IMG/VR virus record: IMGVR_UViG_3300042519_001281 | Span: 1-25,131 of that record | Source of the DNA: a virus | Reading direction: 5' to 3' (one strand) | Length of the DNA stretch: 25,131 bases | Shown here: positions 6,001 to 25,131 of the stretch, piece by piece | Position numbering within the stretch: the stretch's first letter is position 1 | Layout of the letters: each line of letters begins with the position of its first letter | Position numbers and translations under genes: made by a program | The notes under the pieces: generated by a model | The model's database searches: none | What the model was told of the DNA's origin: nothing | Seen by the model: only the letters and a program-made list of their open reading frames with translations

Positions 6001-6809
6001 CTGGATTTGATGGTACATTCTTTGGTAGTAGTGGAACTACTGGAACATCAGGAACTTCAGGTATATCTGGGTCAGCTGGAACTTCTGGATTGGGCACAAA
6101 TGGTACTTCAGGAAGTTCTGGATTGGATGGAACTTTCTTTGGAAGCAGTGGAACATCAGGTTCATCAGGATTATCAGCATCAAATGGTACATCAGGAACT
6201 TCTGGATTGGGTACATCTGGAACATCTGGATTAGATGGTACTTTATTTGGTAGTAGTGGTACAAGCGGTGTAAATGGAACTTCTGGGGTTACAAGTACTA
6301 ATGGTACATCAGGAACTTCTGGTTTTAGTGGCACAAATGGTACATCGGGAAGTTCTGGATTTATGTTATTGTCTGGAGCAACTGAAAATGGTGTATTGAC
6401 TTGGCAAAATAGTACAACAACTGGTATTGTTGAAAGTAATTTAACTTTTGATGGTACTACTCTATCGGTAGCAGGTAACGTAGCATCTACAACATTTAGA
6501 GAAACTTATTCTGATTTAGGAACTGGTGGAAGTGCAACTTTAGATTTATCAACAGCAAACAACTTTAGAAGACAATTTAATGGTACATCAACATTAACAT
6601 TTACTAACGCACCTGCATCAAACGCATTTGGGTTTACGTTAGTGACAGTAAATGCTGGAGCATATACAGTAAACTTTCCTGCTAGTATTGATTGGGCAGG
6701 TGGGAGTGTACCACTTCTAACAACATCTGGTGTGGATGTATTAGTATTTTACACATTTAATGGTGGTACTACATATTTAGGATTTGTAGGAGGTAAGAAT
6801 TTAAATTAA
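3..6809 (+). CDS. Large modular tail fibre with cupredoxin-like domain and collagen-like shaft (5' end outside window)
   Basis: The frame is open from base 3 with no stop, so the gene begins upstream of the window and the ATG at 423 is an internal Met. At least 2268 residues are visible. In order: a fibre module (residues 1-37), a cupredoxin-like domain (about 42-146), repeated fibre modules of the GDGS-LTNV and SGS-A-ISPN type (about 150-620), a small domain with an IVHNLG-RYPLVQIY stretch (about 680-750), Ala/Ser-rich repeats (about 790-900), a Gly-X-Y region (961-2119), and a beta-rich C-terminal domain ending in FVGGKNLN. The modular make-up and the neighbouring tail genes point to a virion fibre, probably trimeric and used for host contact. 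The C-terminal domain resembles small tip domains of other phage fibres. The modules are paralogous to those at the start of the gene at 8916. Which fibre or baseplate position it occupies cannot be told from sequence. Confidence 0.88.
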   Translation, partial: KIPRSALTEDALISTEIKSGSVTASVSPDFGFKVTTPFTSSLSFDNVFTVTNNGSGNYNISNGLISGSNPTITLHRNYEYVFNVNANGHPFWINSASAVGVVNGYNTWVTNNGEDVGQITFLVSGSAPNTLYYNCQLHSAMAGVINVVDGNPTFIYNTQIGSKFTGSVDISGSLFINEASGGLFLASSSKYYGEGTYLRNIPRSALTEDALTSFEIKSGSVTASVSPNFGFRVQSQESGSQFTGSVDVSGSLRAFAFIGDGSQITNVQAAASPLIASGSATASVTSGEQFIVTTAKTGSQIGSQFTGSIDVSGSVKAFSFIGDGSQLTNVQAAAAPLIASGSATASVQSGNTFIVTTGATGSAIGSRFTGSVDVSGSVRAFNFIGDGSQLTNVQAAASPLIASGSATASVASGEQFIVITAPASGSYKSQFTSSVAISGSITASIYYGDGGGLFNIPPESIEGLELFKINSGSGRAIIDPTKLDVNVPITAALYIGDGGGLFNIPANALQDLKLDRIISGSVQAVISPNKGLEIGTRTFVSGNLSVTGGLFVTGSDIVLASGSSYFGDGSGLRNINIANLAFETSILKSGSQFAEISPNRGFRVSTSSSIDGNLIVTHNISAVDITGSHAVFAPIVSGGLVGTYNFKGVGPTASAEYDILRYDESRGYFIPQPEYSLTETVGFNNISNLTIVHNLGIRYPLVQIYATGSEDQIMAGTIKSIDDDTIQIVFSGLTSGHAVIGSGGSIISGTVQGNRVFGSVLSASYADRASVADTVTGFDSASLSALNDIQNLVRNSQTSSMSVFFAVSSSHALTASYISNLSGLNLTDYVRNDRTSSMLVGTASLAITASYALFAQNASNVDTSNFVQNSQTASMTVGTASLAFTASVALFALNAANVDTASFLQVNKDSNINANLTISGSLGVSGSVLLNSLPTGSSDNVVVWNDITKKLERRNIAAAVGSSGTGGTSGTSGESGTDGTSGSSGTSGSSGTEGTSGSSGVDGSNGTSGTSGTEGTSGTSGTEGTSGTSGTAGTSGTSGTEGTSGSSGSSGSSGTEGTSGTSGTEGTSGSSGIDGTSGSSGSSGTSGSSGSSGSSGSSGTEGTSGTSGTSGSSGSGGTSGTSGSSGTSGSTGSFGTSGSGGTSGTSGTSGTSGTEGTSGTSGSSGTSGTSGTSGSSGTSSSSGTGGSSGTSGSSGSSGSSGSSGTEGTSGSSGTSATSGSGGSAGTSGTSGSSGTSGTSGSSGISGSAGTSGSSGTAGSGGSAGTSGTSGSSGTSGTTGSAGTSGTSGTSGTSGKDGTSGTSGSSGSSGTGGSSGTSGTSGTEGTSGTSGIDGTSGTSGTSGTSGTEGTSGSSGTEGTSGSSGTEGTSGTSGIDGTSGSSGSSGTSGSSGTSGTSGSSGTEGTSGTSGKDGTSGTSGSSGTEGTSGSSGTEGTAGTSGTSGVNGTSGTSGIDGTSGTSGLSGTDGTSGTSGSSGTEGTSGTSGIDGSSGTSGTSGSSGTEGTSGTSGSGGTSGTSGTSGLDGTYFGSSGTSGSSGTSGTSGSSGTEGTSGTSGIDGTYFGSSGTSGSSGTSGTSGTSGSSGSSGTEGTSGTSGSSGKDGTSFGSSGTSGTEGTSGTEGTSGTSGSSGTSGTSGKDGTSFGSSGSSGTSGSSGSSGTEGTSGTSGKDGTVGTSGSSGQDGTFFGSSGISGTSGSSGYDGSHGTSGTQGTSGTSGSSGLDGTFFGSNGTSGSSGISGTDGLSGTDGSAGSSGTSGINGTSGSSGVNGTSGSSGLDGTFFGSSGTSGTTGTSGTSGTTGTSGTSGENGTSGSSGLDGTYFGSSGTSGFGTSGTSGSSGESGSSGTTGTSGSSGLDGTLFGSSGTSGTSGTSGISGSAGTSGTTGTSGSSGLDGTLFGSSGTSGTTGTSGISGSAGTSGTTGTSGSSGLDGTFFGSSGTSGSSGTSGITGSNGSSGTSGTTGTSGSSGLDGTFFGSSGTSGTTGTSGITGTAGSSGTTGTSGSSGFDGTFFGSSGTTGTSGTSGISGSAGTSGLGTNGTSGSSGLDGTFFGSSGTSGSSGLSASNGTSGTSGLGTSGTSGLDGTLFGSSGTSGVNGTSGVTSTNGTSGTSGFSGTNGTSGSSGFMLLSGATENGVLTWQNSTTTGIVESNLTFDGTTLSVAGNVASTTFRETYSDLGTGGSATLDLSTANNFRRQFNGTSTLTFTNAPASNAFGFTLVTVNAGAYTVNFPASIDWAGGSVPLLTTSGVDVLVFYTFNGGTTYLGFVGGKNLN
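126..440 (+). other. Cupredoxin-like domain with complete type 1 copper ligand set, within the fibre
   Basis: Counting base 3 as residue 1, a beta-rich stretch carries His89 (bases 267-269, in GHPFWI), Cys135 (405-407), His138 (414-416) and Met141 (423-425). The C-x2-H-x2-M spacing is that of amicyanin, and the His-to-Cys distance of 46 residues is close to plastocyanin (His37 to Cys84). The domain separates two related copies of the same fibre module, as if inserted after a duplication. Similar domains are, from memory, common in marine phage structural proteins; whether they bind copper is unknown to me. Confidence 0.7.
717..1283 (+). repeat. Three tandem 63-codon fibre modules
   Basis: Three copies of 189 bases begin at 717, 906 and 1095. 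Each encodes GS-FTGS-DVSGS, then FIGDGSQ-TNVQAAA, then PLIASGSATASV. The exact spacing keeps the frame. A fourth, more diverged copy follows from about 1284. Confidence 0.9.
2883..6359 (+). repeat. Collagen-like Gly-X-Y region, 1159 residues, no proline
   Basis: Almost uninterrupted triplets starting with Gly, mainly GTS, GSS, GTE, GID and GKD, with no proline visible. In phage fibres Gly-X-Y runs form trimeric rod-like shafts; here stability would have to come without proline, perhaps through Thr/Ser packing or glycosylation (inference). At the DNA level the unit GGTACATCAGGAACTTCTGG occurs more than ten times exactly, which should favour recombination between copies. Confidence 0.92.
4563..6263 (+). 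repeat. Fifteen periodic DGT-[F/Y/L/S]-F-GS interruptions in the Gly-X-Y shaft
   Basis: In the distal half of the shaft the motif DGT-x-FGS-[S/N]-G recurs 15 times, with x being F, Y, L or S. It adds one residue between two glycines, so each copy shifts the triplet register by one. The preceding triplet is usually GLD, GID or GKD. None of these occurs in the first half of the shaft or in the second fibre gene. Confidence 0.9.
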
Positions 6810-8915: not shown

Positions 8916-11900
8916 ATGAAGTTCGAAGGTAAGAGCCCAAATGGTATAAATCAAACTAGCGTTAATAGTGTTTCACTTTTTGTAAGTGGTTCTCCTATTT
9001 TAAATGCCTCATCCCAATCTGTAAGTGTTGTGGGTAATTTTACGGCATCCGCAGTACAAACAAATGTTATTGGAGTTACCAGCGGTTCTTCTCTACAAAT
9101 AAAAGGAAATACAATAATAAGTGGGTCTATAACAGCATCTTTATTTCAAGGTGATGGTAGTGGGTTATTTAATATTAATGCAGCATCTATTGGAGATTTG
9201 TTTAGAATCAAATCAGGTTCAGCAGTAGCAGCAATATCGCCAAATAAAGGTTTAGAAATAAATACAGGTGTTATTGTTAAAGATTATTTAATAGTAACTG
9301 GTAGTGGTATTTTTAAAGGAGATATTAGTGTAGCTGGTAAAATAACATCAACTGAATTACATACAACATTTATATCATCATCAGTAATATTCTCATCAGG
9401 TTCAAATAAATTCGGTGATGCATCAAATGATAAGCAAGAAATAACTGGTAGTTTATCAGTTAGTGGTTCGATATTTGTAACTGGTGATACAATACCAACT
9501 GATAATACAACAAACGAAGTATTAGTTCTTAATACAACAACAGGAAGAATTAGTAGAAGATTTGCAGCAGCAACTTCGGGAACTTCTGGTACATCTGGTA
9601 CATCAGGTAGTAGTGGTTCTAGTGGCACAAGCGGAAGTAGTGGCACGAGTGGAAGTAGTGGCAGTAGTGGTTCATCGGGAAGTTCTGGGACAAGCGGCAC
9701 ATCGGGTTCATCGGGAACTTCTGGAAGTGGTGGTACATCCGGCTCTTCTGGTTCAAGTGGCACAAGTGGTAGTAGTGGTTCATCTGGAACAAGAGGTACA
9801 TCAGGAAGTAGTGGCACAAGTGGTAGTAGTGGAAGTAGCGGTACATCAGGTTCATCTGGCACAAGCGGAAGTAGTGGTAGTAGCGGTAGTAGTGGTTCTT
9901 CGGGAACTTCTGGCACAAGTGGAAGTAGTGGAAGTAGTGGTAAAGATGGTTCAAACGGTAGTAGTGGTTCTAGTGGTTCAAGTGGTAGTAGCGGTGTTAG
10001 TGGAAGTAGTGGTAGCAGTGGTTCATCAGGTTCATCTGGTACAAGCGGAAGTAGTGGCACAAGCGGAAGTAGTGGAACATCTGGATTAACTGGAGCTTCA
10101 TCAACAAATGGTACATCGGGAAGTAGTGGTACAAGCGGAAGTAGTGGTACAAGTGGAAGTAGTGGCAGTAGTGGAACTTCTGGTTCATCTGGTATAGCTG
10201 GAGCATCATCTTCAGCGGGTACATCTGGAAGTAGTGGAAGTAGTGGTTCTAGCGGCACAAGCGGAAGTAGTGGTTCATCGGGTATTACTGGTGCTGGTGG
10301 TGGAGCTGGTAGTAGTGGTAGTAGCGGTTCGTCTGGTACATCAGGAACTCGTGGCACAAGTGGTAGTAGCGGTTCATCAGGAACTTCTGGTAGTAGTGGA
10401 ACGAGTGGAAGTGGTGGGGCACAAGGTTCATCAGGAAGTTCTGGTACATCAGGAAGTTCTGGCACATCAGGAAGTTCTGGAACAAGTGGTAGTAGTGGAG
10501 TAACAGGTTCATCAGGAAGTTCTGGAAGTAGTGGAACTTCTGGAGGACAAGGTTCATCAGGTTCTGCTGGTACATCTGGTAGTAGTGGTACATCAGGAAC
10601 TCGTGGCACAAGCGGAAGTAGTGGTACAAGTGGAAGTACAGGTACTTCTGGAAGTAGTGGCACAAGTGGAATAAGTGGTTCATCGGGAACTTCTGGAGCA
10701 CAAGGTTCATCTGGGTCTGCTGGTACATCTGGTAGTAGTGGTTCATCGGGAACTTCTGGTTCATCAGGAACTCGTGGTAGTAGTGGTTCATCAGGAACTT
10801 CTGGTAGTAGTGGTACAACTGGAACTGGTGGGTCAGCTGGTACAAGCGGAAGTAGTGGTTCTAGTGGCACAAGCGGAAGTAGTGGTTCATCGGGAACTTC
10901 TGGTTCATCAGGAACTCGTGGTAGTAGTGGCACATCAGGTAGTAGTGGTTCATCGGGAACTTCTGGTAGTAGTGGGTCATCGGGAACTTCTGGTAGTAGT
11001 GGTACAACTGGAACGGCTGGGTCAGCTGGTACGTCAGGTAGTAGTGGTACATCGGGAACTAGAGGCACGGGAGGCACATCAGGTAGTAGTGGTTCTAGCG
11101 GCACAAGCGGAAGTAGTGGTACAAGTGGTAGTAGTGGTTCTAGTGGCACAAGTGGAAGTAGTGGTACATCGGGAAGTAGTGGTACTAGTGGGTCAAGCGG
11201 TTCATCGGGAACATCTGGAACGCAGGGTACATCAGGTTCTTCTGGATTATTAGCATTAACTGGTACAACTGATAATGGTGTAATTACATTAAACGGAACT
11301 GCACCAAACGGAACTGTTGAAGCAAATTTAAAATTCGATGGTAGTACATTGACGGTAACTGGAGATGCTACAATTAGTGGTAACTTAACTGTTAGTGGAA
11401 CTACAACATATATTAATACAACAACTTTAAATGTAGGTGATAATATCATTACATTAAACGCAGATATTGGAGCATCAACTGCACCAACTGAAAATGCTGG
11501 TATAGAAGTTAAGAGAGGTAATGCAGCAACAAAAGCATTTTATTGGGATGAAGGAAGTGATAGATGGTATCATGATGATTATACTTTTGTAAATGGTATA
11601 TTACGCAACTCATCTAATATAAATAGTACAGGTGACCAAGGTATATTGGTAACAAGTGGTGATAGATTAGGATTTGACCAATCTGGTACTCGTTCTTGGA
11701 ATATAAAAGCAACTGGTGGTAATTTAGCATTAAACTCTGGAGATGGTGGTGGATTATATACATTTGGTAGTGGTATAACTATTAATGCAGGTAATTTAAC
11801 ATTAAGTTCTGGTAACATAACAATTAGTGGTACAATAGATACAGGACAGGGAGCAACTGAAGTTTATTTAATGAACCAAAATCTCCGTACAACTGATAAT

Positions 11901-14900
11901 GTAACATATGCTAATATAACTGGTAACACAGTTTATTTAGGTGGCGGTACAACTTATTATGTAAATGGGGGAACATCAAATTTAAATTCATTAAATGTTC
12001 AAGGTTGGTCTGTTAGAGATACATTAAGTATTTCTGTTACTGGTGGAAACTGGTACACAGTAGCAACTAATGCTGGTAATAGGGCAATGGCAACATTCCA
12101 TATTTGGGATACTGAAAGTTCTAGGCATGGTTCTATGAAATTTAATGCTGGTATTTCATTTGGTGGAACGGCTGATATTACTATGCTTGGTAAATCTTGG
12201 TATAGTGGTGGTGGTATATTTAATAACATTCGTATTAGAAGAACAGGTACATACGATACTCATTTTTTACAAATATATGTAGCTTCAACTGGTACATTGT
12301 ATATAGCAATGACTGATAACTATCAAAGTGCTGGTTGGGTATTGACAAATGGTGGTACTGGTACTCCGGGTTCAACAACGGCAGCTGAAGTAGTTCCAAA
12401 TGATTATGCTGGTTTAGCTACTAACAATAACATTTATAGTGGAAACGCTGTACATGCTGCAGGGGAAATGCAATCTCCAATTTATTATGATAGAGATGAT
12501 ACCACATATAGAATAAATGGTAATGGTACATCTGTATTAAATTACTTACAAATGAATGCAGCGGAATCTATGAACCTATATGGTATTAGGGGTAGATTCA
12601 CAAACGAATATATTCATTTATATAATAAAGTTGGTATAGGTAATCCAAGTGGTTGGGGAGTTGGTGAAACAAGTACTCCTATATATGGTTTATCCACATA
12701 TGGAGCAATGAATATTGGATATGGCAATACCGCTGATAGTAATTTAACTGGTACATTTAATATAAATGGTAGTACTATAAATGGAGCAAACGATGCAACA
12801 GTTTATATAACCGCCACAAATAACAATGATTGGTTATTAAGATTAAATGCTAGAAATAGTAGTAAGACTGAATATGGTATGTATGTGGATATTCCAAATA
12901 CAGCAACATATGGATATGCTTTACTTAGTGATGGTACTAACTGGACTTATAGAGTAAATGGTAATGGTTATGTTTTCTCAAGATATTATTATGATATTGA
13001 TAACACAGCATATTATGTAAGACCTTCTGTTACAAGTAATTTAAATGCATTACTTACATATTCATATCAAGGTAATGGTAACGTTGGTGGTACTGGTAAC
13101 GCATCTTGGCATCCATCTGGTATTTATTCGGCTGGATACAATTGGTTGTATGGTGGTATAAATGCAGGTGGTAGTAGTGTTACTAATATGAGTGATGCTA
13201 GAGCAAGTATTTTTTATGATTACGATAATACTAATTTTTTCTTAAACCCAGCATCAACCGCAACTTCATTAAGAATAGCAGGTGGTATAAAACAAAATAA
13301 CTTAGTAGGTAGACCTTATGCCGTTTGGGGAGCAACTGGTGCAACTGGAGCAGTTGTTGTTAAATTCCCTGGTAATACAGGAAACTATGGTATGATTCAT
13401 GCGGTTATTGACATTTATGAATATAATGGAAATAATGCATGTACTGTAATAGTTGGTGGACATAACTGGAATGGTGCTTGGTATAATTTCGGAGCAACTC
13501 TTGTAGGATATACTGATAAACCAATTAGAGTTGGTGTTAAAGATGGTAAATATTGTATCGTAATTGGTAATGGTTCATCATCTTGGTCATATGGACAAGT
13601 TGTTCTTCGTAAAATACAAAACGGAGCTTATTATGATGGTGTAATGGATGTTGCTGAAGGATATACTGCGGCAATTGAATCTGATACATATTCAAATATA
13701 TCTGGTGATTTAAGTGGATTTAGAAGTACAACTATAAGTGCTACATCAGCAATGTACTCTCCAATATACTATGATTCAAATGATAGTGGATATTATATTG
13801 ATGGAAATAATCAATCTAGATTATTAGCATTAAAAGTTGGAAACTTAGGTACATTTAATTCTGGTAATACTTACGCTCTACAATTATCACATAACAATAG
13901 ATATTTACTAGCTTTAAATTATAATAATAGTTCGTATTATCCTTGGTTAGCAAATGATACTTGGAATGGATACGAAGCATTGATTTTCCATTTTAACGGT
14001 ATAGGAGACCAATTTTATTTTAATAGAGCCGGTCAAATGCAAGCAAATGGTGATATGAGAGCACCAATATTCTATGATAGTAATGATACAACTTACTATA
14101 CTAATCCTGCTGGAACATCTCAATTCAACGATTCTATATTTGGTACAACTGGATTAGCATCTAACACTGGTATTCAAATTCGTTATCAAAACTATTCAAG
14201 TGGTTATGGTAGAATTCGTTTTTATCAAAGTGATAGTAACCACCAAACTATACATGCATTCTCTGCAAACTGGCAGAGTGGTAATTTATTAGGTTCATCT
14301 ACTGGTGGTATTAATATAGAAGGACAAAATGGTGTAACCTTTGGTCCTTGGAACGCAATTCATACTGGCATAACATCAGCTGGTGTATATATTCGTAATA
14401 ATGGTAATCTTTATTTGGATTATAATTACGGACAATCTGTTGTTGGTGTATATTCGGATGTTAGATATCAGGGTATATTCGCAATGGGTGATGCATATAA
14501 ATTATCAATAGATGGAACTGGTACTGGTAACTTATATGGTTTAGCATGGTCACATCCAAATAGAGGTGGTGTGGCTAGTAACTTAGCAGACCATGGTTTA
14601 TTACTATTACAATATGGTACATTTAGAACAGCAATAGGTGGTGGTAGAATTGTAACAACATCCGATATTAGAGGTACTGTATTTTATGATTATGATGATA
14701 CTGGATATTACACAGACCCAAATACAACTGGAACTGCTGGTAGATTTAGAGGACAACTTTTAATAGGTCCAAACTCATCTGGTAGATATACTAGAATTGG
14801 TGGAAATGGTGGAGCAATCGATGAAGCAACTTTATCAGCATCAAACGGAAACTTACACATTGATAGTGCCAATGGATATGGATTATATTTAAACCATTAT

Positions 14901-17666
14901 TCAAACGGAACTATTTTTATGAATAATGGTGGTGGACATGCGTTTTCATACACTTCATTAAGAGCACCAATATTCTATGATTACAATAATACAAACTATT
15001 ATTTAGATCCTGATGGTACATCTGTTTTACTTGCAACTTATATAGGTGGGCATTATTATTACACATATAATAGTGCAAATATAATGATAAGAACTGCTGG
15101 AAATAGTGATGGTGGTATTTTATTACAAAACGCAGGGGGTTCATTCAAATTCCAATTATATGCAGATAATAGTAGTAACTATGGTTTCTTAAATGGTCCG
15201 TGGGCAAGTTGGGATTTGAGAAAGACCTTAAATGGTAACTTGTTTATGAATAATAATAGTAGTTATTATTTAAATACAAATTCAATATCTCAATTAGCAA
15301 TTCTAAGAACTGATGTATCGACTAGTGGTTATACCGCTATGTTTGGACCTTATACATTATCTACAAATGGGCAAACGTTTATATATCCAGATGATGCTAG
15401 ATATGGAGTAGTAGTTAATGCACCATACTACCCACACTTATACATAAACTCATATGCAAATGGTGGTAACCCTACGCATGGTGGTGTATTTAGTATGAGT
15501 GGTTTTTTGACAGGTGGTGGATTTAGAAGATTTGTAATGGGTATCGCAAATACCAATCCAAACGAAATGAGTTTTGGTTGGTATGATAATAACTACAATC
15601 CGCACTATGGAGTAGGTATTAACTGGTCTTACCCAGCATCTATTTGGTATGATACATCTAATAACTTCTATGTAAGAAATTCAGTTTACGCTTATACTTT
15701 CTATGATAGAGATAATACTGGATACTATGCAAATCCAGCATCAACATCTAATTTTAACTATGTAATTGCTGCTAACGGAGCATCTTATCAACATAACGCG
15801 TATAATAACAATGGTTCATTTATGATGAATAACGCATCTACCTATTGGGGTATGATGTTAAACGTATCTGCAAATGACTGGAGATTGGGTTATGGTGGTG
15901 GTAATAGTATTGTTGGTTGGAACTTACGTTGGGATAATGGTTCTACTGTTTGGGCAAATGGTTCATTTAGAGCACCAATATTCTATGATAGTGATGATAC
16001 TGGATATTATGCTAATCCAAATGGTGAATCAAGTTTTAGCACAGGTATATTTTATGGAAATAGATTAGTAATTAGAGGAGGTTCTCCAACTTTATATTTC
16101 AGAGATACGGATGAAAACTCTGCAATGCTTCACAACAATAGTAACCGTCTTTATGTATTAAGAGGTGGTACTGATAGTGAAAGCTGGGGTACTGTAAATG
16201 GGTATTGGCCTACATATTGGCAACTTAATACCAACTATTGTTTAATGGGTGGTACTACTGAAGCTGTTTATGATTTTAGAGCACCAATATTCTATGATTC
16301 AAACAATACTGCATATTATTGTGACCCTAATGGTACGGCTAGATTATCATATGTAGCAGCAAATGGTGGTATTCGTATTGATGGAAATGCAGACCTTTAT
16401 TTAGATAACAACTACGGACAATCTGTTGTGGGTGTTTATACATCTGTAAGATATCAAGGTGTATTCTCAATGGGTAATTCATATAAACCAGCAATAGATG
16501 GTACATCTATGAATAACTTGTATGGTATTGCTTGGTCACATCCAAACGTTGGAGGACAGGGTGGGTACTTGAATGACCATGGTATGATTGTTGCCAATTA
16601 TGGTACGGCATTCGCAGCAATTTCATCACGTGGTTGGTTTAGAACATCCGTACAATCTCCAATATTTTACGATGATAATAATACTGGTTACTATTGTAAT
16701 CCTAATGCATATTCTCAATTTAGTTCTGGTGAAGCAAATGATTATTGGAGAGTATCAAGATTGACATTTACTGGTGAGGGTGGTAACTCCGGAAATGGTG
16801 CACACGCATACGCTATCTTCCAAGAAGGTGGTGGTTGGGGTTATCCTTATCCGGATTTAAGAATTGCATTCCATACTGGTATTAAATTGGGAGCAAATGC
16901 ATCATACGAAGGAACTCGTATTTATGATGATTATCCAATGGGTACTATCAGATGGCAGTTTAATGGAGGTAGTGGTTATAATTATCAATACACTTGGACT
17001 CAACTTACAGGACACCACGGACATTATTCTGGTACTAATGGTGCACACTGGTATCCAAACGATGTTACTTATGGTGCGTGGAGAATGGCCGGTAATAGAA
17101 ATGGATGGTATGGTCATAGAATAGATTCATCTTACGCACCTCATATAATGTTTGAAAGTGGTAATGGTGGTATTTACTATCAAGATAATGGAAGATGGGT
17201 ATTCTATCATTCATTAGGAAATAACTGTACTGGACTTGGAACTTCATCAACGGCTAGTGGGTATGGAATTTATGTAAATGGTGGTGTTTATGCAACTGGT
17301 AACGTTGTGGCTTATTCGGATGCACGAAAGAAAAAAGATGTTGTTACAGTTGATAAGGCTTTAGATAAAGTTTTACAATTAAGAGGTGTTTACTATACTA
17401 AAATTTATAATGAAAATGATACCATTCCTGATGGAGGTGCTGACAAAAGACAACTTGGTGTAATTGCACAAGAAGTAAATGAAGTAGTTCCTGAAGTAGT
17501 ATCATATGTGAAAGATTTAGATGAATATGCAGTTGCATATGGTAATATGTCAGCATTACTTATTGAAGCAATTAAAGAGCAAAATCAAATTATCAAAAAG
17601 CAAGCGGATGAAATTGAAGAAATGAAAGAAATTTTAAATAAATTGATATTTAATAATAAAGGATAA
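8916..17666 (+). CDS. Giant tail fibre with collagen-like shaft and C-terminal S74 intramolecular chaperone
   Basis: 2916 residues. Residues 1-220 are fibre modules related to those of the first fibre gene (GDGSGLFNI, SGSAVAAISPNKGLEI). Residues 222-777 are Gly-X-Y repeats. Residues 778-900 form a connector (VSGTTTYINTTTLNVGDNIITLN). Residues about 1020-1160 form a beta domain seen in other fibres. From about 1187 to 2600 there are 11 clear copies of a YD-x-[DN]-[DN]-T/S-x-YY-type motif, each followed by long beta-rich inserts. The end is a Peptidase_S74/endosialidase chaperone domain (SDARKKKDV, LGVIAQEV) closed by a coiled coil. In this family the chaperone drives trimer folding and then cuts itself off before the Ser. 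The size and domains fit a long tail fibre that binds the host receptor. No frameshift or truncation is seen. Confidence 0.92.
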   Translation: MKFEGKSPNGINQTSVNSVSLFVSGSPILNASSQSVSVVGNFTASAVQTNVIGVTSGSSLQIKGNTIISGSITASLFQGDGSGLFNINAASIGDLFRIKSGSAVAAISPNKGLEINTGVIVKDYLIVTGSGIFKGDISVAGKITSTELHTTFISSSVIFSSGSNKFGDASNDKQEITGSLSVSGSIFVTGDTIPTDNTTNEVLVLNTTTGRISRRFAAATSGTSGTSGTSGSSGSSGTSGSSGTSGSSGSSGSSGSSGTSGTSGSSGTSGSGGTSGSSGSSGTSGSSGSSGTRGTSGSSGTSGSSGSSGTSGSSGTSGSSGSSGSSGSSGTSGTSGSSGSSGKDGSNGSSGSSGSSGSSGVSGSSGSSGSSGSSGTSGSSGTSGSSGTSGLTGASSTNGTSGSSGTSGSSGTSGSSGSSGTSGSSGIAGASSSAGTSGSSGSSGSSGTSGSSGSSGITGAGGGAGSSGSSGSSGTSGTRGTSGSSGSSGTSGSSGTSGSGGAQGSSGSSGTSGSSGTSGSSGTSGSSGVTGSSGSSGSSGTSGGQGSSGSAGTSGSSGTSGTRGTSGSSGTSGSTGTSGSSGTSGISGSSGTSGAQGSSGSAGTSGSSGSSGTSGSSGTRGSSGSSGTSGSSGTTGTGGSAGTSGSSGSSGTSGSSGSSGTSGSSGTRGSSGTSGSSGSSGTSGSSGSSGTSGSSGTTGTAGSAGTSGSSGTSGTRGTGGTSGSSGSSGTSGSSGTSGSSGSSGTSGSSGTSGSSGTSGSSGSSGTSGTQGTSGSSGLLALTGTTDNGVITLNGTAPNGTVEANLKFDGSTLTVTGDATISGNLTVSGTTTYINTTTLNVGDNIITLNADIGASTAPTENAGIEVKRGNAATKAFYWDEGSDRWYHDDYTFVNGILRNSSNINSTGDQGILVTSGDRLGFDQSGTRSWNIKATGGNLALNSGDGGGLYTFGSGITINAGNLTLSSGNITISGTIDTGQGATEVYLMNQNLRTTDNVTYANITGNTVYLGGGTTYYVNGGTSNLNSLNVQGWSVRDTLSISVTGGNWYTVATNAGNRAMATFHIWDTESSRHGSMKFNAGISFGGTADITMLGKSWYSGGGIFNNIRIRRTGTYDTHFLQIYVASTGTLYIAMTDNYQSAGWVLTNGGTGTPGSTTAAEVVPNDYAGLATNNNIYSGNAVHAAGEMQSPIYYDRDDTTYRINGNGTSVLNYLQMNAAESMNLYGIRGRFTNEYIHLYNKVGIGNPSGWGVGETSTPIYGLSTYGAMNIGYGNTADSNLTGTFNINGSTINGANDATVYITATNNNDWLLRLNARNSSKTEYGMYVDIPNTATYGYALLSDGTNWTYRVNGNGYVFSRYYYDIDNTAYYVRPSVTSNLNALLTYSYQGNGNVGGTGNASWHPSGIYSAGYNWLYGGINAGGSSVTNMSDARASIFYDYDNTNFFLNPASTATSLRIAGGIKQNNLVGRPYAVWGATGATGAVVVKFPGNTGNYGMIHAVIDIYEYNGNNACTVIVGGHNWNGAWYNFGATLVGYTDKPIRVGVKDGKYCIVIGNGSSSWSYGQVVLRKIQNGAYYDGVMDVAEGYTAAIESDTYSNISGDLSGFRSTTISATSAMYSPIYYDSNDSGYYIDGNNQSRLLALKVGNLGTFNSGNTYALQLSHNNRYLLALNYNNSSYYPWLANDTWNGYEALIFHFNGIGDQFYFNRAGQMQANGDMRAPIFYDSNDTTYYTNPAGTSQFNDSIFGTTGLASNTGIQIRYQNYSSGYGRIRFYQSDSNHQTIHAFSANWQSGNLLGSSTGGINIEGQNGVTFGPWNAIHTGITSAGVYIRNNGNLYLDYNYGQSVVGVYSDVRYQGIFAMGDAYKLSIDGTGTGNLYGLAWSHPNRGGVASNLADHGLLLLQYGTFRTAIGGGRIVTTSDIRGTVFYDYDDTGYYTDPNTTGTAGRFRGQLLIGPNSSGRYTRIGGNGGAIDEATLSASNGNLHIDSANGYGLYLNHYSNGTIFMNNGGGHAFSYTSLRAPIFYDYNNTNYYLDPDGTSVLLATYIGGHYYYTYNSANIMIRTAGNSDGGILLQNAGGSFKFQLYADNSSNYGFLNGPWASWDLRKTLNGNLFMNNNSSYYLNTNSISQLAILRTDVSTSGYTAMFGPYTLSTNGQTFIYPDDARYGVVVNAPYYPHLYINSYANGGNPTHGGVFSMSGFLTGGGFRRFVMGIANTNPNEMSFGWYDNNYNPHYGVGINWSYPASIWYDTSNNFYVRNSVYAYTFYDRDNTGYYANPASTSNFNYVIAANGASYQHNAYNNNGSFMMNNASTYWGMMLNVSANDWRLGYGGGNSIVGWNLRWDNGSTVWANGSFRAPIFYDSDDTGYYANPNGESSFSTGIFYGNRLVIRGGSPTLYFRDTDENSAMLHNNSNRLYVLRGGTDSESWGTVNGYWPTYWQLNTNYCLMGGTTEAVYDFRAPIFYDSNNTAYYCDPNGTARLSYVAANGGIRIDGNADLYLDNNYGQSVVGVYTSVRYQGVFSMGNSYKPAIDGTSMNNLYGIAWSHPNVGGQGGYLNDHGMIVANYGTAFAAISSRGWFRTSVQSPIFYDDNNTGYYCNPNAYSQFSSGEANDYWRVSRLTFTGEGGNSGNGAHAYAIFQEGGGWGYPYPDLRIAFHTGIKLGANASYEGTRIYDDYPMGTIRWQFNGGSGYNYQYTWTQLTGHHGHYSGTNGAHWYPNDVTYGAWRMAGNRNGWYGHRIDSSYAPHIMFESGNGGIYYQDNGRWVFYHSLGNNCTGLGTSSTASGYGIYVNGGVYATGNVVAYSDARKKKDVVTVDKALDKVLQLRGVYYTKIYNENDTIPDGGADKRQLGVIAQEVNEVVPEVVSYVKDLDEYAVAYGNMSALLIEAIKEQNQIIKKQADEIEEMKEILNKLIFNNKG
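9579..11246 (+). repeat. Second collagen-like Gly-X-Y region, 556 residues, no proline
   Basis: Residues 222-777 of the giant fibre are triplets dominated by GSS and GTS, with occasional GTR, GAQ, GKD and GIT. Two triplets have Ser in place of Gly (GAS-STN and GAS-SSA). Unlike the first fibre there are no aromatic one-residue interruptions and almost no acidic triplets. Confidence 0.92.
14406..14650 (+). repeat. Duplicated fibre domain, copy 1
   Basis: Encodes NLYLDYNYGQSVVGVY, then YGLAWSHPN and DHGLLL. It matches copy 2 in frame at an offset of 1986 bases (662 residues). The WSHPN-DHG pattern is found in other phage fibres. Confidence 0.85.
16392..16636 (+). repeat. Duplicated fibre domain, copy 2
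   Basis: Encodes DLYLDNNYGQSVVGVY, then YGIAWSHPN and DHGMIV. It is clearly homologous to copy 1 with moderate divergence, so this is an old internal duplication. Confidence 0.85.
17316..17663 (+). other. S74 intramolecular chaperone domain with self-cleavage Ser2801
   Basis: Ser2801 (codon at 17316) opens the SDARKKKDV motif, the family's cleavage-site serine followed by Asp, Arg and Lys. LGVIAQEV follows further on, and a coiled coil ends the protein. Family knowledge predicts release of the last 116 residues, leaving a mature fibre of 2800 residues. Confidence 0.85.
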
Positions 17667-17669
17667 ATT

Positions 17670-18101
17670 ATGGCACTAATTAAAGATTATGAATTACCAG
17701 GAACTGGAGTAACTGTACCAAATGCATATCACGTAGTTACAAATGTAAAAATTGAAAAACGAATGGCAGACTTCAAGCCACCTGTTGATAATTCTAGACC
17801 CGATGGTTTAACACCAATGGATAGAAGCGCAGGTACGGAAGTATATTGGGCAGCGGGATATACAGCAGAAATAGCAGTTACAGTTTGGAAAAATAAAGAA
17901 GCAAGAGATACTGAAGCAAGGCCGATAGGATTTGTAGGAACAAACCCAAGTGATAATGCACATAACGCAAGTATTGGTACACCGGGTATGGACCACAAAT
18001 GTAAATTTATGTTAGAAGTACCATCTGAATTGGACCATATGGCACAAGCATATAGGCATTTATTAACTACGGATTATTATAGTGGTTCTTTGGAAGTTTA
18101 A
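17670..18101 (+). CDS. Conserved phage protein of unknown function
   Basis: 143 residues, starting four bases after the fibre's stop codon, so probably on the same transcript. It begins MALIKDYELPGTGVTVPNAYH, a start I associate with small proteins beside fibre and sheath genes in other T4-like marine phages. A mixed alpha/beta composition is suggested, with a central WAAGYTAEIAVTVW strand pair and a C-terminal helix near LDHMAQAYRHLL. There is no signal peptide, membrane segment or catalytic motif. A virion or assembly role is inferred only from position. Confidence 0.6.
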   Translation: MALIKDYELPGTGVTVPNAYHVVTNVKIEKRMADFKPPVDNSRPDGLTPMDRSAGTEVYWAAGYTAEIAVTVWKNKEARDTEARPIGFVGTNPSDNAHNASIGTPGMDHKCKFMLEVPSELDHMAQAYRHLLTTDYYSGSLEV

Positions 18102-21078: not shown

Positions 21079-21567
21079 ATGGCAGAAATATTAGAATTCG
21101 ATAAAATGTTCTATACGAACTTCGAACCAAAGATGAAGAATCGCTATGTAATGGAAATTGATGGCATTCAGTCTTACTTAGTTAAAGCAGCAGCTAGACC
21201 TACAATTCAATTTGAGGTAATAACTTTAGACCATATCAACGTAAAAAGAAAGTTGAAAGGTAAAGGTGAATGGCAAGATATAACAATCACATTGTTTGAC
21301 CCAATTGTACCTTCTGGGGCACAATCGGTAATGGAGTGGATTCGTTTATCACATGAATCTATCACTGGTAGAGATGGATATGCAGATTTCTATAAAAAAG
21401 ATTTAGATTTCTATATGTTAGGACCAGTTGGTGATAAGATTGAGCAGTGGAAAATTAAAGGAGCATTCATCTCCCAAGCAAACTTTGGAGATGTATCATT
21501 CGATTCTAACGAACCTGCAACAATTGAATTAACATTATCTTACGATTACGCAATTCTTGAATTCTAA
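21079..21567 (+). CDS. gp19: Tail tube protein (T4 gp19-like)
   Basis: 162 residues, almost the length of T4 gp19 (163). Typical features are the start MAEILEFDKMFYTNFEPKMKNRYVM-IDG, the central VKRKLKGKGEWQDITITLFDP strand pair, the helix SVMEWIRLSHES, and the end ATIELTLSYDYAILEF. These match the T4 gp19 tube family (PF06841). The protein stacks in hexameric rings to form the inner tube through which DNA passes, inside the sheath encoded just upstream. A strong terminator follows 21 bases after the stop codon, so sheath and tube form one late unit. Confidence 0.93.
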   Translation: MAEILEFDKMFYTNFEPKMKNRYVMEIDGIQSYLVKAAARPTIQFEVITLDHINVKRKLKGKGEWQDITITLFDPIVPSGAQSVMEWIRLSHESITGRDGYADFYKKDLDFYMLGPVGDKIEQWKIKGAFISQANFGDVSFDSNEPATIELTLSYDYAILEF

Positions 21568-21588
21568 TCTAAGACTAATAATAAAATT

Positions 21589-21621
21589 AAAGGGATATCA
21601 TTCAGTTGGTATCCCTTTTTT
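21589..21621 (+). terminator. Rho-independent terminator after the tube gene
   Basis: AAAGGGATATC (21589-21599) pairs with GGTATCCCTTT (21608-21618), 11 pairs with one U-G wobble and an 8-base loop, running into six T's (21616-21621). Confidence 0.88.
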
Positions 21622-21645
21622 ATTTCCAATTTTTTAAAATCTATG

Positions 21646-21653
21646 TATTTATA
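21646..21653 (+). promoter_or_regulatory. Candidate late promoter motif TATTTATA
   Basis: Exact octamer 25 bases after the tube terminator and 27 bases before the ATG at 21681, the position expected for a promoter restarting transcription. Confidence 0.45.
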
Positions 21654-21680
21654 TATACAAACTTAAAAACAATTAATGTT

Positions 21681-22502
21681 ATGGCAGAAATGGCAAATGT
21701 GGAAAATTTACAATCACAACCTGTAAGTGCACCACCAAAAAGAGAATTTGAATTCCCAACGGAAACAATTGAATTACCTTCTCAAGGATTAGTTTATCCT
21801 GAAGGACACCCACTAAGAAAAGGTAGTGTAGAATTAAAATATATGACAGCTAGAGAGGAAGATATCCTTGCATCTCAAAACCTTATCAAAAAAGGAGTTG
21901 TTTTGGATAGATTATTTGAATCGGTTGTTGTTGAGCCAGGTATAAATTGTGAAGATATTTATACTGGAGATAAAAACGCAATTCTTTTAGCAACTCGTAT
22001 TTTAGGATATGGAGCTGACTATGCAGTTGAAATTACTGACCCTTTTAGTGGAGAAAAACAAGAAGTAACTATTGATTTATCTGCAATCCAAACCAAAGAA
22101 GTTGATTTTTCTAAATTAAATAGTAAAAATAGATATGAATTTACACTACCTTCAAATGGTAAAAACATTGAATTTAAATTATTAACGCATAAAGATGAAG
22201 TTGATATTGCAAAAGAAATTCAAGCACTAGAAAGATTAAATAAAAATTCAGCATTAGCATCCGATGTTACAACTAGATTTAGATATATGATTACTGCGGT
22301 TGATGGTAATTCTGATAGAGGTTTCATCAATAGATGGGTACAAAATAATTTCTTAGCTAGAGATACAAAAGCATTTAGAACATATGTTAAGGATATTAGT
22401 CCTGATATGGATATGAGATTTGTATTTACATCAGAAATAACAGGTGAATCGGAGGCGCTAGATATCCCATTTGGGATAAACTTTTTTTACCCTACCAACT
22501 AA
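21681..22502 (+). CDS. gp26: gp26-like baseplate/tail assembly protein, probable tape-measure chaperone (0-frame product)
   Basis: 273 residues from ATG 21681. An in-frame ATG at 21606 is rejected because it lies inside the terminator hairpin. Recognisable T4_baseplate family (gp26, PF12322 from memory) features are ETIELPSQGLVYPEGHPL near residue 32, then VELKYMTAREEDILASQNLIKKG and an IPFGINFFYP end. T4 gp26 acts in tail assembly and is not a major virion component. The place directly before the tape measure is where gpG-type chaperones sit in other phages, so a role in keeping the tape measure soluble is likely (inference). The last codons contain a run of seven T's that can link it to the reading frame at 22480-22701. 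Confidence 0.8.
   Translation: MAEMANVENLQSQPVSAPPKREFEFPTETIELPSQGLVYPEGHPLRKGSVELKYMTAREEDILASQNLIKKGVVLDRLFESVVVEPGINCEDIYTGDKNAILLATRILGYGADYAVEITDPFSGEKQEVTIDLSAIQTKEVDFSKLNSKNRYEFTLPSNGKNIEFKLLTHKDEVDIAKEIQALERLNKNSALASDVTTRFRYMITAVDGNSDRGFINRWVQNNFLARDTKAFRTYVKDISPDMDMRFVFTSEITGESEALDIPFGINFFYPTN
22479..22488 (+). other. Candidate programmed frameshift site (AACTTTTTTT)
   Basis: In the 0 frame the codons are AAC TTT TTT TAC, followed three codons later by TAA at 22500. The extension frame is closed upstream by TAA at 22477-22479, so a switch must happen between 22480 and 22499; the T7 run is the only slippery stretch there. A +1 or a -2 slip of tRNA-Phe keeps full pairing on TTT and enters the extension frame. 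A small inverted repeat, TATCCC-ATTT-GGGATA (22463-22478), lies just before it. Confidence 0.6.
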
Positions 22503-22701
22503 TTACAAAGTACAACTCCATACTCAAATTTGGGAAATGGTACATTATGGTAATGGGTTTACTTGGTCTGATGTTTATTTTATGCCAATACATCTTAGAA
22601 ACTTTTATTTTAAACAATTAGTTGATTTTAAGAAAAAAGAAGCAGAGGAGAATAAAAAAGCACAATCAAAAGCAAGAATACCAAAAGTGAGGACACGATA
22701 A
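22480..22701 (+). CDS. C-terminal extension of the gp26-like protein, reached by frameshift (gpGT/gp51-like)
   Basis: 73 codons open in the +1 frame relative to the upstream gene. The sequence looks like real protein: WEMVHYGNGFTWSDVYFMP, then IHLRNFYFKQLVDFKKKEAEE and a basic end (ARIPKVRTR). The pattern (aromatic-rich helix, W-S-D-V, MP-x-x-LR-x-FY, then a charged helix) recalls small proteins or extensions found after gp26-like genes in other T4-like phages. No good start is present at the beginning; the first ATG in frame is at 22537 and would remove the first 19 codons. The best model is a fused product of about 341 residues made by slippage at the T7 run. Alternatives are independent translation from 22537, or a one-base error in the T run. 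Confidence 0.65.
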   Translation, partial: TFFTLPTNYKVQLHTQIWEMVHYGNGFTWSDVYFMPIHLRNFYFKQLVDFKKKEAEENKKAQSKARIPKVRTR

Positions 22702-22714
22702 TCCTCACTTTTTT
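22683..22714 (+). terminator. Rho-independent terminator after the frameshift extension
   Basis: AAAAGTGAGGA (22683-22693) pairs perfectly over 11 bases with TCCTCACTTTT (22702-22712), followed by T's to 22714. The 8-base loop contains the TAA stop codon, so the left arm is coding. Confidence 0.88.
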
Positions 22715-22723
22715 ATTATACAA

Positions 22724-22731
22724 TATTTATA
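22724..22731 (+). promoter_or_regulatory. Candidate late promoter motif TATTTATA
   Basis: Exact octamer 10 bases after the terminator's T run and 20 bases before the ATG at 22752, positioned to start a transcript for the small gene and the tape measure. Confidence 0.45.
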
Positions 22732-22751
22732 CAATATAAATGTGAATTACC

Positions 22752-22961
22752 ATGTCAACTAACAAAAAACAAATAAAAGAAGGTATATTTGATGCTGCAG
22801 ATAGATTTGTAGCTAACTTCTTTGATAACTTAAGTAAAGGAGCAGCTGATACTATTATAAAGAAGGCTGAAAAAGCAAAATTACCTCCTGATGCAATCGC
22901 ACATATGAAGAAGATGGAAAAGGATGCAATTGAATTTAGAAAATTCATGAAAGATTTGTAA
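22752..22961 (+). CDS. Small helical charged protein before the tape measure
   Basis: 69 residues, Lys-rich and predicted helical throughout, starting MSTNKKQIKEGIFDAADRFV. It has FFDNLSKGAADTIIKKAEKA in the middle, a turn at LPPD, and a last helix with MKKMEKDAIEFRKFMKDL. There is no signal peptide or membrane segment. Small KEGIFD-type proteins at this spot occur, from memory, in other T4-like phages, but no function is known to me. Eleven bases separate it from the tape-measure start, so the two are probably cotranscribed. A tape-measure partner or assembly factor is a guess from position. Confidence 0.65.
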   Translation: MSTNKKQIKEGIFDAADRFVANFFDNLSKGAADTIIKKAEKAKLPPDAIAHMKKMEKDAIEFRKFMKDL

Positions 22962-22972
22962 ATCAATTATAA

Positions 22973-25131
22973 GTGGCAGATAGCATATTACAATTTAATG
23001 ATGATTCTACTAAAAATGTATCCGATAGAATACGTTTGATGAAAGAAGCTGTCAAAATAGCAAGACAGCAAGAAACACTCACGGATGCAGAATTAGCAAA
23101 ATTAAGACAAATTGAAGCGTTAGAAGTAAAACTTTTGAATTATCAAAAGAAAAAATTAGAAAACGCAAGAACCTACGATAAAAAACAATTATCGATGGTG
23201 GCATCATCTGCCGGAGAATTAGCAAATTTAGAATCAATAAGTGATATTTACAGAAACTTAACTAGTGCACAATCACTAAGTTTGAGAATGGGAACTTTAT
23301 CTTTAAAGTCCTCACTAGCTGCTGAAAATGCAGATGCATCCAAATATGAATTGGTAGAAGGTATATTAGGTGAAACGGCTAAATTAAATAACTTACAACA
23401 AAAGTTGGCAGAAACCGGCCCAGAAGATGTAGAGGCACAAAAATCTATAAGAGCTCAATATGATGCACAAGTTGATGCAATTAGACAGCGTGTGGCTGAA
23501 GCAAGGGCTAGTGGAGATTTAACTGCTGACCAGGTAACACATTTTGATAAAATAATAGAGAGACAGGCTAAAAATTTAAGTATAGCAGAGCAATATGCAA
23601 CAGTTAGTAGTAAATCTAAAGAAATAGTACAAGGACAGATTGATGCATATAAAGCAGTTGAAAAAACCATAAGAGGTATTATTGGAACTGCTAAACTATT
23701 GTTTAGTAGTTGGAGAGGATTTGTGGGAGGTACACTTATAGCTGCTGGTATGGCTGCTGAAAAATTAGGAGCAACTGTTAGAGCAATGGGTGGCTATATG
23801 GGAGGGGTTACATTTTCAACCACAGCATTGGGATTGGTATTTAAGGATGCACAGGGTGTTGCTGAAGGATTAAATGCTGAGTTGGGTGGTATGAGTGATG
23901 TAACATTCCAAACTCAACTCAATACCAACTTAATGGCTACTAATATGGGTATTAGTGGACAGGAAGCAGCTTCATTGACTGGTAACTTTGCTAGATTGAA
24001 TGGCAACTCTACATCAATAGCCGCTGATATGGCTGAGAGTACAAAGCAATTAGCAAAATCAAAGGGAGTAATGCCATCCGCTGTAATGAAAGATGTTGCT
24101 AAATCATCAAAAGCATTTGCTGAATATGGTAAAGATGGTGGAAAAAATATAGCTGAAGCAGCTGTTGCGGCAGCAAGGTTAGGCGTTAATATGGATAGTC
24201 TTACCAAAGTTGCAGACCATTTATTAGATTTTGAATCATCTATCACAGATGAATTAGAATTAGGCGCAATGTTGGGAAGAAATATAAATCTTAACAATGC
24301 TAGAGATTTAGCATATAGAGGACAGATTGGAGCAGCTGTAAAAGACGCATTACATCAATTAGGTGGTATTGATGCATATAATAAAATGGATGTTTTTCAA
24401 AAACGTCAAGCAGCAAAAGCATTAGGATTATCAACGGAAGAACTTGACAAAATGGTTAAGAATCAGGATAAACTTAATGATGATGGTACGTTGCAACTTA
24501 CTACATTTGAGAGTTGGTCACAATCATTAACAGCATTTGCAACCGGCCCACTTGGTAGTGTATTGAAAACAATGGGTGGTTTAGTTTTATCTGGTGCACA
24601 ATTTGGTGGAGCTCTTGCACAAATGGGATTCAATATTGGAGGAATGGTTAAAGGTACGTTCCAAATGCTTGGTAATTTTGCTAAAATGGCAGTAACTAAA
24701 GTGGCTGGGATGTTTGGTAAAAAGATATCATTTGGAGCTGGTAAAGGTCCTGAATTACCTGATACTAATAAAATAGCAGATGGGTCTGATAAAATGTCAA
24801 AAGGAAAAGGTGGAATAGGTGATAAGTTAAAAGACCTTGCTAAAGGATTAAAAGAGATGGGTAGTGGTAAAGTACTATTCGGAGCATTGAATTTAATACC
24901 AACTGGATTGGGATTTTTGGGAATGATACCTGGCTTACCAACTCTTTGGTTATTATCTAAAATGGATGTTAGTGGTGTTGGTAAAGGTTTGGGTGAGTTA
25001 GCAAAGGGGTTGAAAAAAATGGGTGATGGTAAAGTATTATTCGGAGCATTATCATTATCATTAGCTGGTTTGGCATTTGCAGTAATGACTCTTGGTGTTA
25101 TTGGAATGGCCGCAGTTGCATTATTGGGAAT
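22973..25131 (+). CDS. Tail tape-measure protein (3' end outside window)
   Basis: Open from GTG 22973 to the window edge, 719 codons. TAA at 22970 lies directly before the GTG in the same frame, so the start cannot be further upstream. The next ATG is at 23039, but the GTG gives the start MADSILQFND. Residues about 15-60 are a charged coiled coil, helical Ala/Gln/Lys-rich sequence continues to about 235, and a first hydrophobic segment (LLFSSWRGFVGGTLIAAG) spans about 242-260. The rest alternates helical and hydrophobic stretches, with two strongly hydrophobic segments near 635-664 and 689-719. Such composition, length and position after sheath, tube and chaperone identify a tape measure, which sets tail length and is ejected with the DNA. 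It has no detectable resemblance to T4 gp29 by eye. Confidence 0.85.
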   Translation, partial: MADSILQFNDDSTKNVSDRIRLMKEAVKIARQQETLTDAELAKLRQIEALEVKLLNYQKKKLENARTYDKKQLSMVASSAGELANLESISDIYRNLTSAQSLSLRMGTLSLKSSLAAENADASKYELVEGILGETAKLNNLQQKLAETGPEDVEAQKSIRAQYDAQVDAIRQRVAEARASGDLTADQVTHFDKIIERQAKNLSIAEQYATVSSKSKEIVQGQIDAYKAVEKTIRGIIGTAKLLFSSWRGFVGGTLIAAGMAAEKLGATVRAMGGYMGGVTFSTTALGLVFKDAQGVAEGLNAELGGMSDVTFQTQLNTNLMATNMGISGQEAASLTGNFARLNGNSTSIAADMAESTKQLAKSKGVMPSAVMKDVAKSSKAFAEYGKDGGKNIAEAAVAAARLGVNMDSLTKVADHLLDFESSITDELELGAMLGRNINLNNARDLAYRGQIGAAVKDALHQLGGIDAYNKMDVFQKRQAAKALGLSTEELDKMVKNQDKLNDDGTLQLTTFESWSQSLTAFATGPLGSVLKTMGGLVLSGAQFGGALAQMGFNIGGMVKGTFQMLGNFAKMAVTKVAGMFGKKISFGAGKGPELPDTNKIADGSDKMSKGKGGIGDKLKDLAKGLKEMGSGKVLFGALNLIPTGLGFLGMIPGLPTLWLLSKMDVSGVGKGLGELAKGLKKMGDGKVLFGALSLSLAGLAFAVMTLGVIGMAAVALLG
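24818..25060 (+). repeat. Tandem repeat in the tape measure (54-residue period)
   Basis: LAKGLKEMGSGKVLFGAL (from 24836) and LAKGLKKMGDGKVLFGAL (from 24998) are 162 bases apart, each followed by a hydrophobic stretch. A third copy may follow beyond the window edge. Confidence 0.85.

Follow-up and report, generated by a model that had tools for sequence, protein, structure and literature searches.

A conserved frame change in a T4-type tail assembly chaperone gene, best read as programmed +1 frameshifting

The window analysed here is the whole stretch of 25,131 nucleotides of the IMG/VR virus record IMGVR_UViG_3300042519_001281 (positions 1 to 25,131). Its tail genes and the elements around the frame change are listed in Table 1. 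The zero-frame chaperone gene starts with ATG at 21681 and ends with TAA at 22500-22502 after 273 codons; it closes with AAC TTT TTT TAC CCT ACC AAC TAA. The product matches PHROG 150 (E 1.7e-12) and PF12322, the T4 base plate family (E 1.2e-7; 32.1 bits, above the curated cut-off of 24.5). The run of seven T residues (T7) in its last codons is the only one on the shown strand of the window. The +1 frame, which is the same as the -2 frame, is open from 22480 to a TAA at 22699-22701, giving 73 codons from 22480 and 70 from the codon after the T run. An earlier sequence-only reading had placed the two frame ends at 22502 and 22701, and its coordinates and frame offset are correct.

The chaperone gene lies between the genes for the tail tube and the tape measure protein, the latter assigned by its position and by the annotation of relatives. 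A family search with the reading frame at 22973-25129 gave nothing better than E 0.03, and its position is that of the annotated tape measure gene in Flavobacterium phage immuto and Bacillus phage SP-15. Between the extension and this gene there is a 69-codon ORF (22752-22961; best PHROG E 0.16), and an ORF of about this length also stands here in Microcystis phage Mel-JY01. Elsewhere in the window, positions 3-6809 and 8916-17666 encode two very large, probably tail fibre-like proteins with long GTSGSSG-type repeats. The ORF at 18170-18562 matches PF25590 (DUF7936) and PHROG 7802, and adjoins an unmatched ORF at 17670-18101.

Table 1. Features of the chaperone locus and its neighbours in the window
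Feature	Position	Strand	Evidence
Tail tube protein (gp19 type), upstream	21079..21567	+	PF06841 E 1.1e-8, PHROG 4542 E 2.2e-29
T4 gp26-like short tail assembly chaperone (TAC-N), 273 aa, zero frame	21681..22502	+	PHROG 150, PF12322
GGAGG, Shine-Dalgarno-like, 31 nt upstream of slip site	22451..22455	+	conserved position
Small 5' hairpin UAUCCC-AUUU-GGGAUA, putative modulator	22463..22478	+	predicted fold, just upstream of site
Slip site TTT TTT T(AC), C before	22482..22488	+	TTT TTT TAY in 79 of the best 80 first-round homologues; constraint at synonymous sites
+1-frame extension, 70 aa, only in long chaperone (TAC-NC, gp51-like C-terminal domain)	22489..22701	+	
Probable tape measure protein, runs off window	22973..25129	+	position

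The first round of homologues came from a scan of viral contigs and comprised the best 80 of a longer list. Further sets were obtained by two profile scans, with the best 80 loci taken from each of two longer lists, and from seven named phage records. Ten of the 15 matching named-phage records were taken; the other entries are further immuto and SP-15 records and phage CM1. The resulting 247 loci, less 52 duplicate junctions and the exceptional locus L023, gave 194 distinct junctions. The T7 run and the frame offset seen in the window recur in 79 of the best 80 first-round homologues: the zero-frame stop lies no more than a few codons from TTT TTT TAY CCT, and the +1 frame continues, in a few of the 79 to the end of the contig. 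The exception, L023, has a normal T7 junction but an earlier zero-frame stop upstream in the same gene. The counts exclude L108 (LR756511), a distant relative from an uncultured phage; its zero frame runs beyond the usual FF position and lacks that ending, and its -1 frame is open. Another 21 loci, found by a scan with the extension and standing outside the counts, were checked later; the junction is TTTTTTTAYCC in 17 of them and TTTTTTTGG in the other four.

The extension was placed with its own profile, built up in four rounds. Its frame is +1 in 189 of the 194 listed distinct junctions and -1 in two (L198 and L293), and three (L112, L221 and L298) have no profile assignment. Seven more named phages were picked for an open -1 frame; the profile gave -1 in two of them and no assignment in five. 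Among the loci placed in +1 are Microcystis phage Mel-JY01, Flavobacterium phage immuto, Streptococcus phage vB_SagM-GXN1, Bacillus phage SP-15 and Listeria phage LIS04. In Rhodothermus phage RM378 the +1 frame is open at TTT TTT TGG, and the profile does not recognise the extension. Divergence in the shifted frame is 0.16, 0.13 and 0.34 at codon positions 1, 2 and 3 (464 equal-length pairs in the 5-35% divergence band, drawn from 181 complete extensions), so the frame evolves as coding sequence. The short product and the out-of-frame extension are thereby conserved together. Most loci are related metagenome contigs, and the signal survives clustering; as judged from these alignments, the shifted frame is conserved far beyond chance. 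The analysis thus supports the suspected frameshift as a conserved trait of a gp26-like gene that adjoins the gene for the tail tube and precedes the one for the probable tape measure protein. A tblastn search of phage records with the window extension gave no match, and its best PHROG hits have E values of only 0.034 and 0.3. The -1 extensions of cyanophage, Rhizobium and Aeromonas phages match PHROG 634 (E 7.9e-27, 3e-8 and 1.9e-15, respectively); no match to this PHROG was obtained from the Mel-JY01 +1 extension or the L198 -1 extension.

Cognate re-pairing one base on, from UUY to UUY, is possible in all 189 of the +1 loci, as a programmed +1 site demands. The second codon of the site is TTT in 182 of these loci, CTT in six and CTA in one. 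Phenylalanine at this position is thus always encoded by TTT (182/182), against 72% TTT for phenylalanine elsewhere in these genes, and the preference is not explained by codon usage. The sites are mostly UUU_UGG or UUU_UAC; UUC_UUU_CGU is found in the relatives L106 and L221. A scan for synonymous constraint is strongest between codon -10 and the new frame's third codon, and farther on leucine (KL 1.45) and threonine (KL 1.08) stand out less. The -1 sites of the TTT TTC form also hold UUU_U, hence this tetramer is not sufficient for a +1 shift. The simplest reading for the whole family is that the P-site tRNA-Phe slips +1 on UUU_Y.

The sequence-only reading had left the shift as +1 or -2, and here the relatives favour +1. 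A programmed -2 slippage on U7 would move tRNA-Phe back by two bases and reach the same frame with one extra phenylalanine. Programmed -2 slippage is known from phage Mu, and cognate -2 re-pairing is allowed by the T7 run in the window and in 175 of the 189 +1 loci. Shifts of -1 or -2 on a U6A heptamer are also indicated by the title of a paper cited in the accessible part of PMC3498833. Against this, -2 re-pairing is impossible in the other 14 loci, which keep the same frame; their sites include TTT CTT TGG in immuto, TTC TTT CGT in vB_SagM-GXN1 and also TTC TTT TGG. A U before the run would leave the -2 re-pairing intact, yet it is avoided (3/189). We therefore consider the -2 shift unlikely. 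The same loci bear on slippage of RNA polymerase, the further mechanism that had been suggested, in which mRNAs with six or nine U residues would be made from the T7 run. The longest T run is indeed exactly 7 in 166 of the 189 loci and 8 or 9 in five, as polymerase slippage would favour. It is only 3-4 in the 14 loci without -2 re-pairing, so that neither mechanism is credible there. Moreover, an extra T before the run is avoided, though it would lengthen the run, and 173 of the 189 loci keep TTT TTT as two in-frame codons. These observations speak against the polymerase and make its slippage very improbable.

The second frame could also be a separate gene with its own start or translated by coupling, like the annotated ORF of Pseudomonas phage Cygsa01 that starts at TAATG directly after gp26. 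In the shifted frame, from its upstream stop to 33 nt beyond the zero-frame stop, an ATG is present in 47 of the 189 loci, and GTG or TTG only in 89 more. The ATG codons stand at scattered offsets and 53 loci have no ATG, GTG or TTG in this interval, so no conserved start was found there. Conservation in the shifted frame starts at the junction, and T4 gp51 has both parts in one chain. A separate gene is, on this evidence, a shade less probable still than polymerase slippage. As for a homopolymer error of sequencing or assembly, the window is a single contig and T7 runs can be miscounted, but the same frame relation repeats in 189 distinct junctions and in isolates including immuto and SP-15. 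The chance of such an error is negligible, and the homologues already refute it.

The base before the first phenylalanine codon differs between the +1 loci and their -1 relatives. In the 189 +1 loci this base is C in 99, G in 69, A in 18 and T in 3, on a background of 37% T and 12% C among third bases in these genes. T precedes other in-frame TTT codons in 278 of 1316 cases (21%). Grouping at 60% identity gives 48 clusters, in which 21.7 sites with a preceding T are expected from codon usage; three were observed, and none of 200,000 simulations reached that. Since three +1 loci (L219, L231 and L272) do have T, the avoidance is not absolute. The window has C before U7 and its extension in +1, and its site does not form the canonical -1 heptamer (X XXY YYZ). 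Among nine -1 loci, four assigned by profile and five by reading of the open frame, T precedes the site in eight. Cyanophage-type relatives carry T TTT TTC in all 56 distinct junctions, which is the canonical -1 heptamer U UUU UUY; their extension is in -1 in 55 and the remaining one has no assignment.

Both directions occur among 15 relatives of L293 (10 distinct). Four have the -1 site AAT TTY TTC TGG, five have the +1 site AAC TTT TTT TGG, and L391 has no site. Both sites encode the peptide N-F-F-W, so the differences between them are synonymous. The distance from the site to a conserved proline codon of the extension is 106 nt in five +1 loci versus 113 nt in three -1 loci (L198, L382 and L384); judging by this spacing, a flip of direction would also need a length change beyond the site. 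In a tree of 69 proteins the direction label takes three changes, a number forced by well supported branches. The -1 loci L380/L381 and L198/L382/L384 fall in two separate places inside the +1 clade. The deeper order of the outer -1 groups is unsure owing to the meeting of long branches, of which the tool warned.

A Shine-Dalgarno-like GGAGG stands upstream of many sites. Among the 76 unique +1 loci with a TAC or TAT codon in the A site, the type of the window, it lies at exactly -31 in 74, and it is found in none of four upstream control blocks of 60 nt. The other 113 +1 loci have GGAGG within the last 60 nt in 53 cases (control mean 1.5), mostly at -28, -31, -22 or -32. In cyanophage-type loci, GGAGG or AGGAG is at -16 in 47 of 56, which is near the usual spacing of -1 stimulators. 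The nested -1 loci L380 and L381 have GGAGG within 48 nt upstream; L198, L382 and L384 have none in this interval. A direct Shine-Dalgarno effect of the prfB kind, where the spacing is 3 nt, does not fit a GGAGG at -31 and was rejected. To our knowledge, the spacing in the +1 sites fits no known stimulator.

The hairpin region (27 nt) folds better than its synonymous recodings (n=80, mean z -1.03, p 2.4e-9), with z from -0.43 to -0.02 in five control blocks farther upstream. A smaller group gave a mean z of -1.68 (n=10, p 0.011), which is weak given its controls of -1.05 to +0.17. The hairpin is absent in several loci, so the better folding holds on average and not per locus. Folds of longer segments were compared with simple letter shuffles in two groups of at most 25 loci each. 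The 45 nt upstream of the site show no excess in this comparison (-0.45 and -0.09, versus controls of -1.12 and -0.15), and the wider fold of the window is no more stable than its shuffles (z 0.03). A stimulatory structure in the 70 nt after the site was rejected, the difference being too small (z -1.45 and -1.11, versus controls of -0.86 and -0.52). An Rfam search of 21500-23100 gave no match at E <= 1.

We speculate that the direction of the shift is an evolvable switch, a reading that may equally well hold or fail. The direction would be set by a few synonymous bases of the site, with AAC UUU UUU UGG for +1 and AAU UUY UUC UGG for -1 encoding the same peptide. Two lineages within the +1 clade would have flipped, one of them with a change of 7 nt in the spacing to the extension. 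The +1 form would use a new layout of its stimulator, in which GGAGG stands some 28-31 nt before the site (at 16 nt for -1 sites of the cyanophage class), often with a small hairpin between it and the site. The near-identical +1 and -1 sites provide a natural test of what sets the frameshift direction in bacteria.

The T4 proteins gp26 and gp51 belong to the same family as the window protein: both are members of PHROG 150 and PF12322, with an additional C-terminal part in gp51. A profile of the fused protein aligns with T4 gp51 from end to end (probability 97.8, E 1.3e-12), and with T4 gp26 only to the junction, where gp26 ends with EFFELL (probability 97.5, E 7.9e-12). The short form of the window thus ends where gp26 ends, and the long form aligns with gp51. 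The extension alone matches T4 gp51 at a probability of 3% (E 0.015; best of 50 column shuffles 1.3%), so the strong gp51 score needs the whole protein. T4 has two genes; the window has a single gene with a +1-shifted extension, and in cyanophage-type relatives the extension is in -1. A study by Vladimirov, Gautam and Davidson (2022, Virology 566:9-15) reportedly treats the tail assembly chaperones of T4-like phages and the two-gene solution of T4. The link to gp26 and gp51 drawn in the sequence-only reading is borne out by the profiles, and it is not new. According to the accessible part of PMC10885494, separate genes for the short and the fused long chaperone in T4-like phages were published by Vladimirov et al. 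2022.

The AF2 model of the zero-frame product has a pLDDT of 88 and that of a gp51 homologue one of 81; to our reading the order of elements is similar in the two, and the latter adds C-terminal helices predicted with low confidence (pLDDT about 52-66). Two mixed alignments (A5 and A6) gave poor predictions and were dropped. Foldseek searches of viral models returned gp26-like hub proteins, with TM 0.78 for SP-15 and up to 0.70 for T4-like hub assembly proteins, and some of the BFVD matches are annotated as baseplate hub or T4-like hub assembly proteins. Against the PDB, Foldseek gave nothing at E <= 0.001; the HK97 tail assembly chaperone 2ob9 is a weak match (rank 12, probability 0.28, TM 0.48 by target). 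A sequence search of the PDB gave no match for the chaperone profile, and chance-level matches only for gp51.

By far the best reading of the locus is a conserved, programmed +1 frameshift in a gene for a T4-type tail assembly chaperone, and very probably a programmed +1 slippage of tRNA-Phe on UUU_U yields a short and a long chaperone. The sequences themselves show the conserved frame change with its direction, the slip site, the avoidance of U before it and the kinship with gp26 and gp51; the slipping of ribosomes and the ratio of the two products we infer. Most ribosomes would read to the TAA at 22502 and make the short form of 273 residues. At AAC UUU UUU UAC, some P-site peptidyl-tRNA-Phe (anticodon GAA) would move from its UUU onto the overlapping UUU one base ahead while the A-site codon is still unread. 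Translation would restart at ACC and add 70 residues (...NFF|TLPTNYK...). A base other than U before U6 (C, G or A) would avoid a competing -1 heptamer, U UUU UUY. The upstream GGAGG and the hairpin may modulate the shift. By homology, the short form would act as lambda gpG or T4 gp26 and the long form as gpGT or T4 gp51, the two together loading the tape measure protein and recruiting tube subunits.

Systems of this kind are known. Slippage on UUU-pyrimidine in E. coli has reportedly been described by Schwartz and Curran, and by Fu and Parker in argI. The gpG/gpGT pair of lambda likewise lies upstream of the tape measure gene and has two products from a shift near the end of the first frame, as described in the accessible part of PMC5009743. 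By the same source, the lambda-type shift is -1, whereas that of the window is +1 on UUU_U; the two are compared here by arrangement. The part of this review available to us states that G-T frameshifting is conserved among phages with long tails 'except T4', and describes a 'very likely +1' shift in the tail chaperone of the haloarchaeal myovirus HSTV-2, which has an archaeal host and is compared here by description. The +1 slip in PA-X of influenza A also occurs in the P site, on UCC_UUU_CGU, as deduced from mass spectrometry and mutants (PMC3498833, accessible part). As in PA-X, the relatives would use a P-site tRNA-Phe moving +1 on UUU_Y, and UUC_UUU_CGU in two of them is close to its site; PA-X differs in its eukaryotic ribosome, its gene and its site. 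A poly-T slip site at the end of the TAC-N gene has also been described in Pseudomonas phage Adele and the Vandenendeviridae, with direction -1 and a GTTTTT motif, a likeness drawn from the description in the accessible part of PMC12846349. That text cites poly-T -1 signals in T4-like chaperone genes as known. No +1 shift in a gp26-type chaperone was found in the literature within reach; most subscription papers, notably Vladimirov 2022, lay outside the search, so priority is not established. With this scope, the +1 direction, the guarding base, the natural +1/-1 flips and the upstream GGAGG look new.

One homologous gene is thus found in three states, with a +1 shift, with a -1 shift and as the two genes of T4. 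These states allow one to ask how the product ratio persists while the mechanism changes. In Cygsa01 the extension is annotated as an ORF of its own (L133, 1809-1982), with TAATG after ATT TTC ACC; this is possibly a fourth architecture that uses coupling instead of frameshifting. Annotation can also miss the extension or cut it short. Small ORFs called in immuto (L104, 3339-3449) and SP-15 (L107, 3309-3428) have their starts inside the extension and share its +1 frame relative to the chaperone gene, so they are probably truncated calls.
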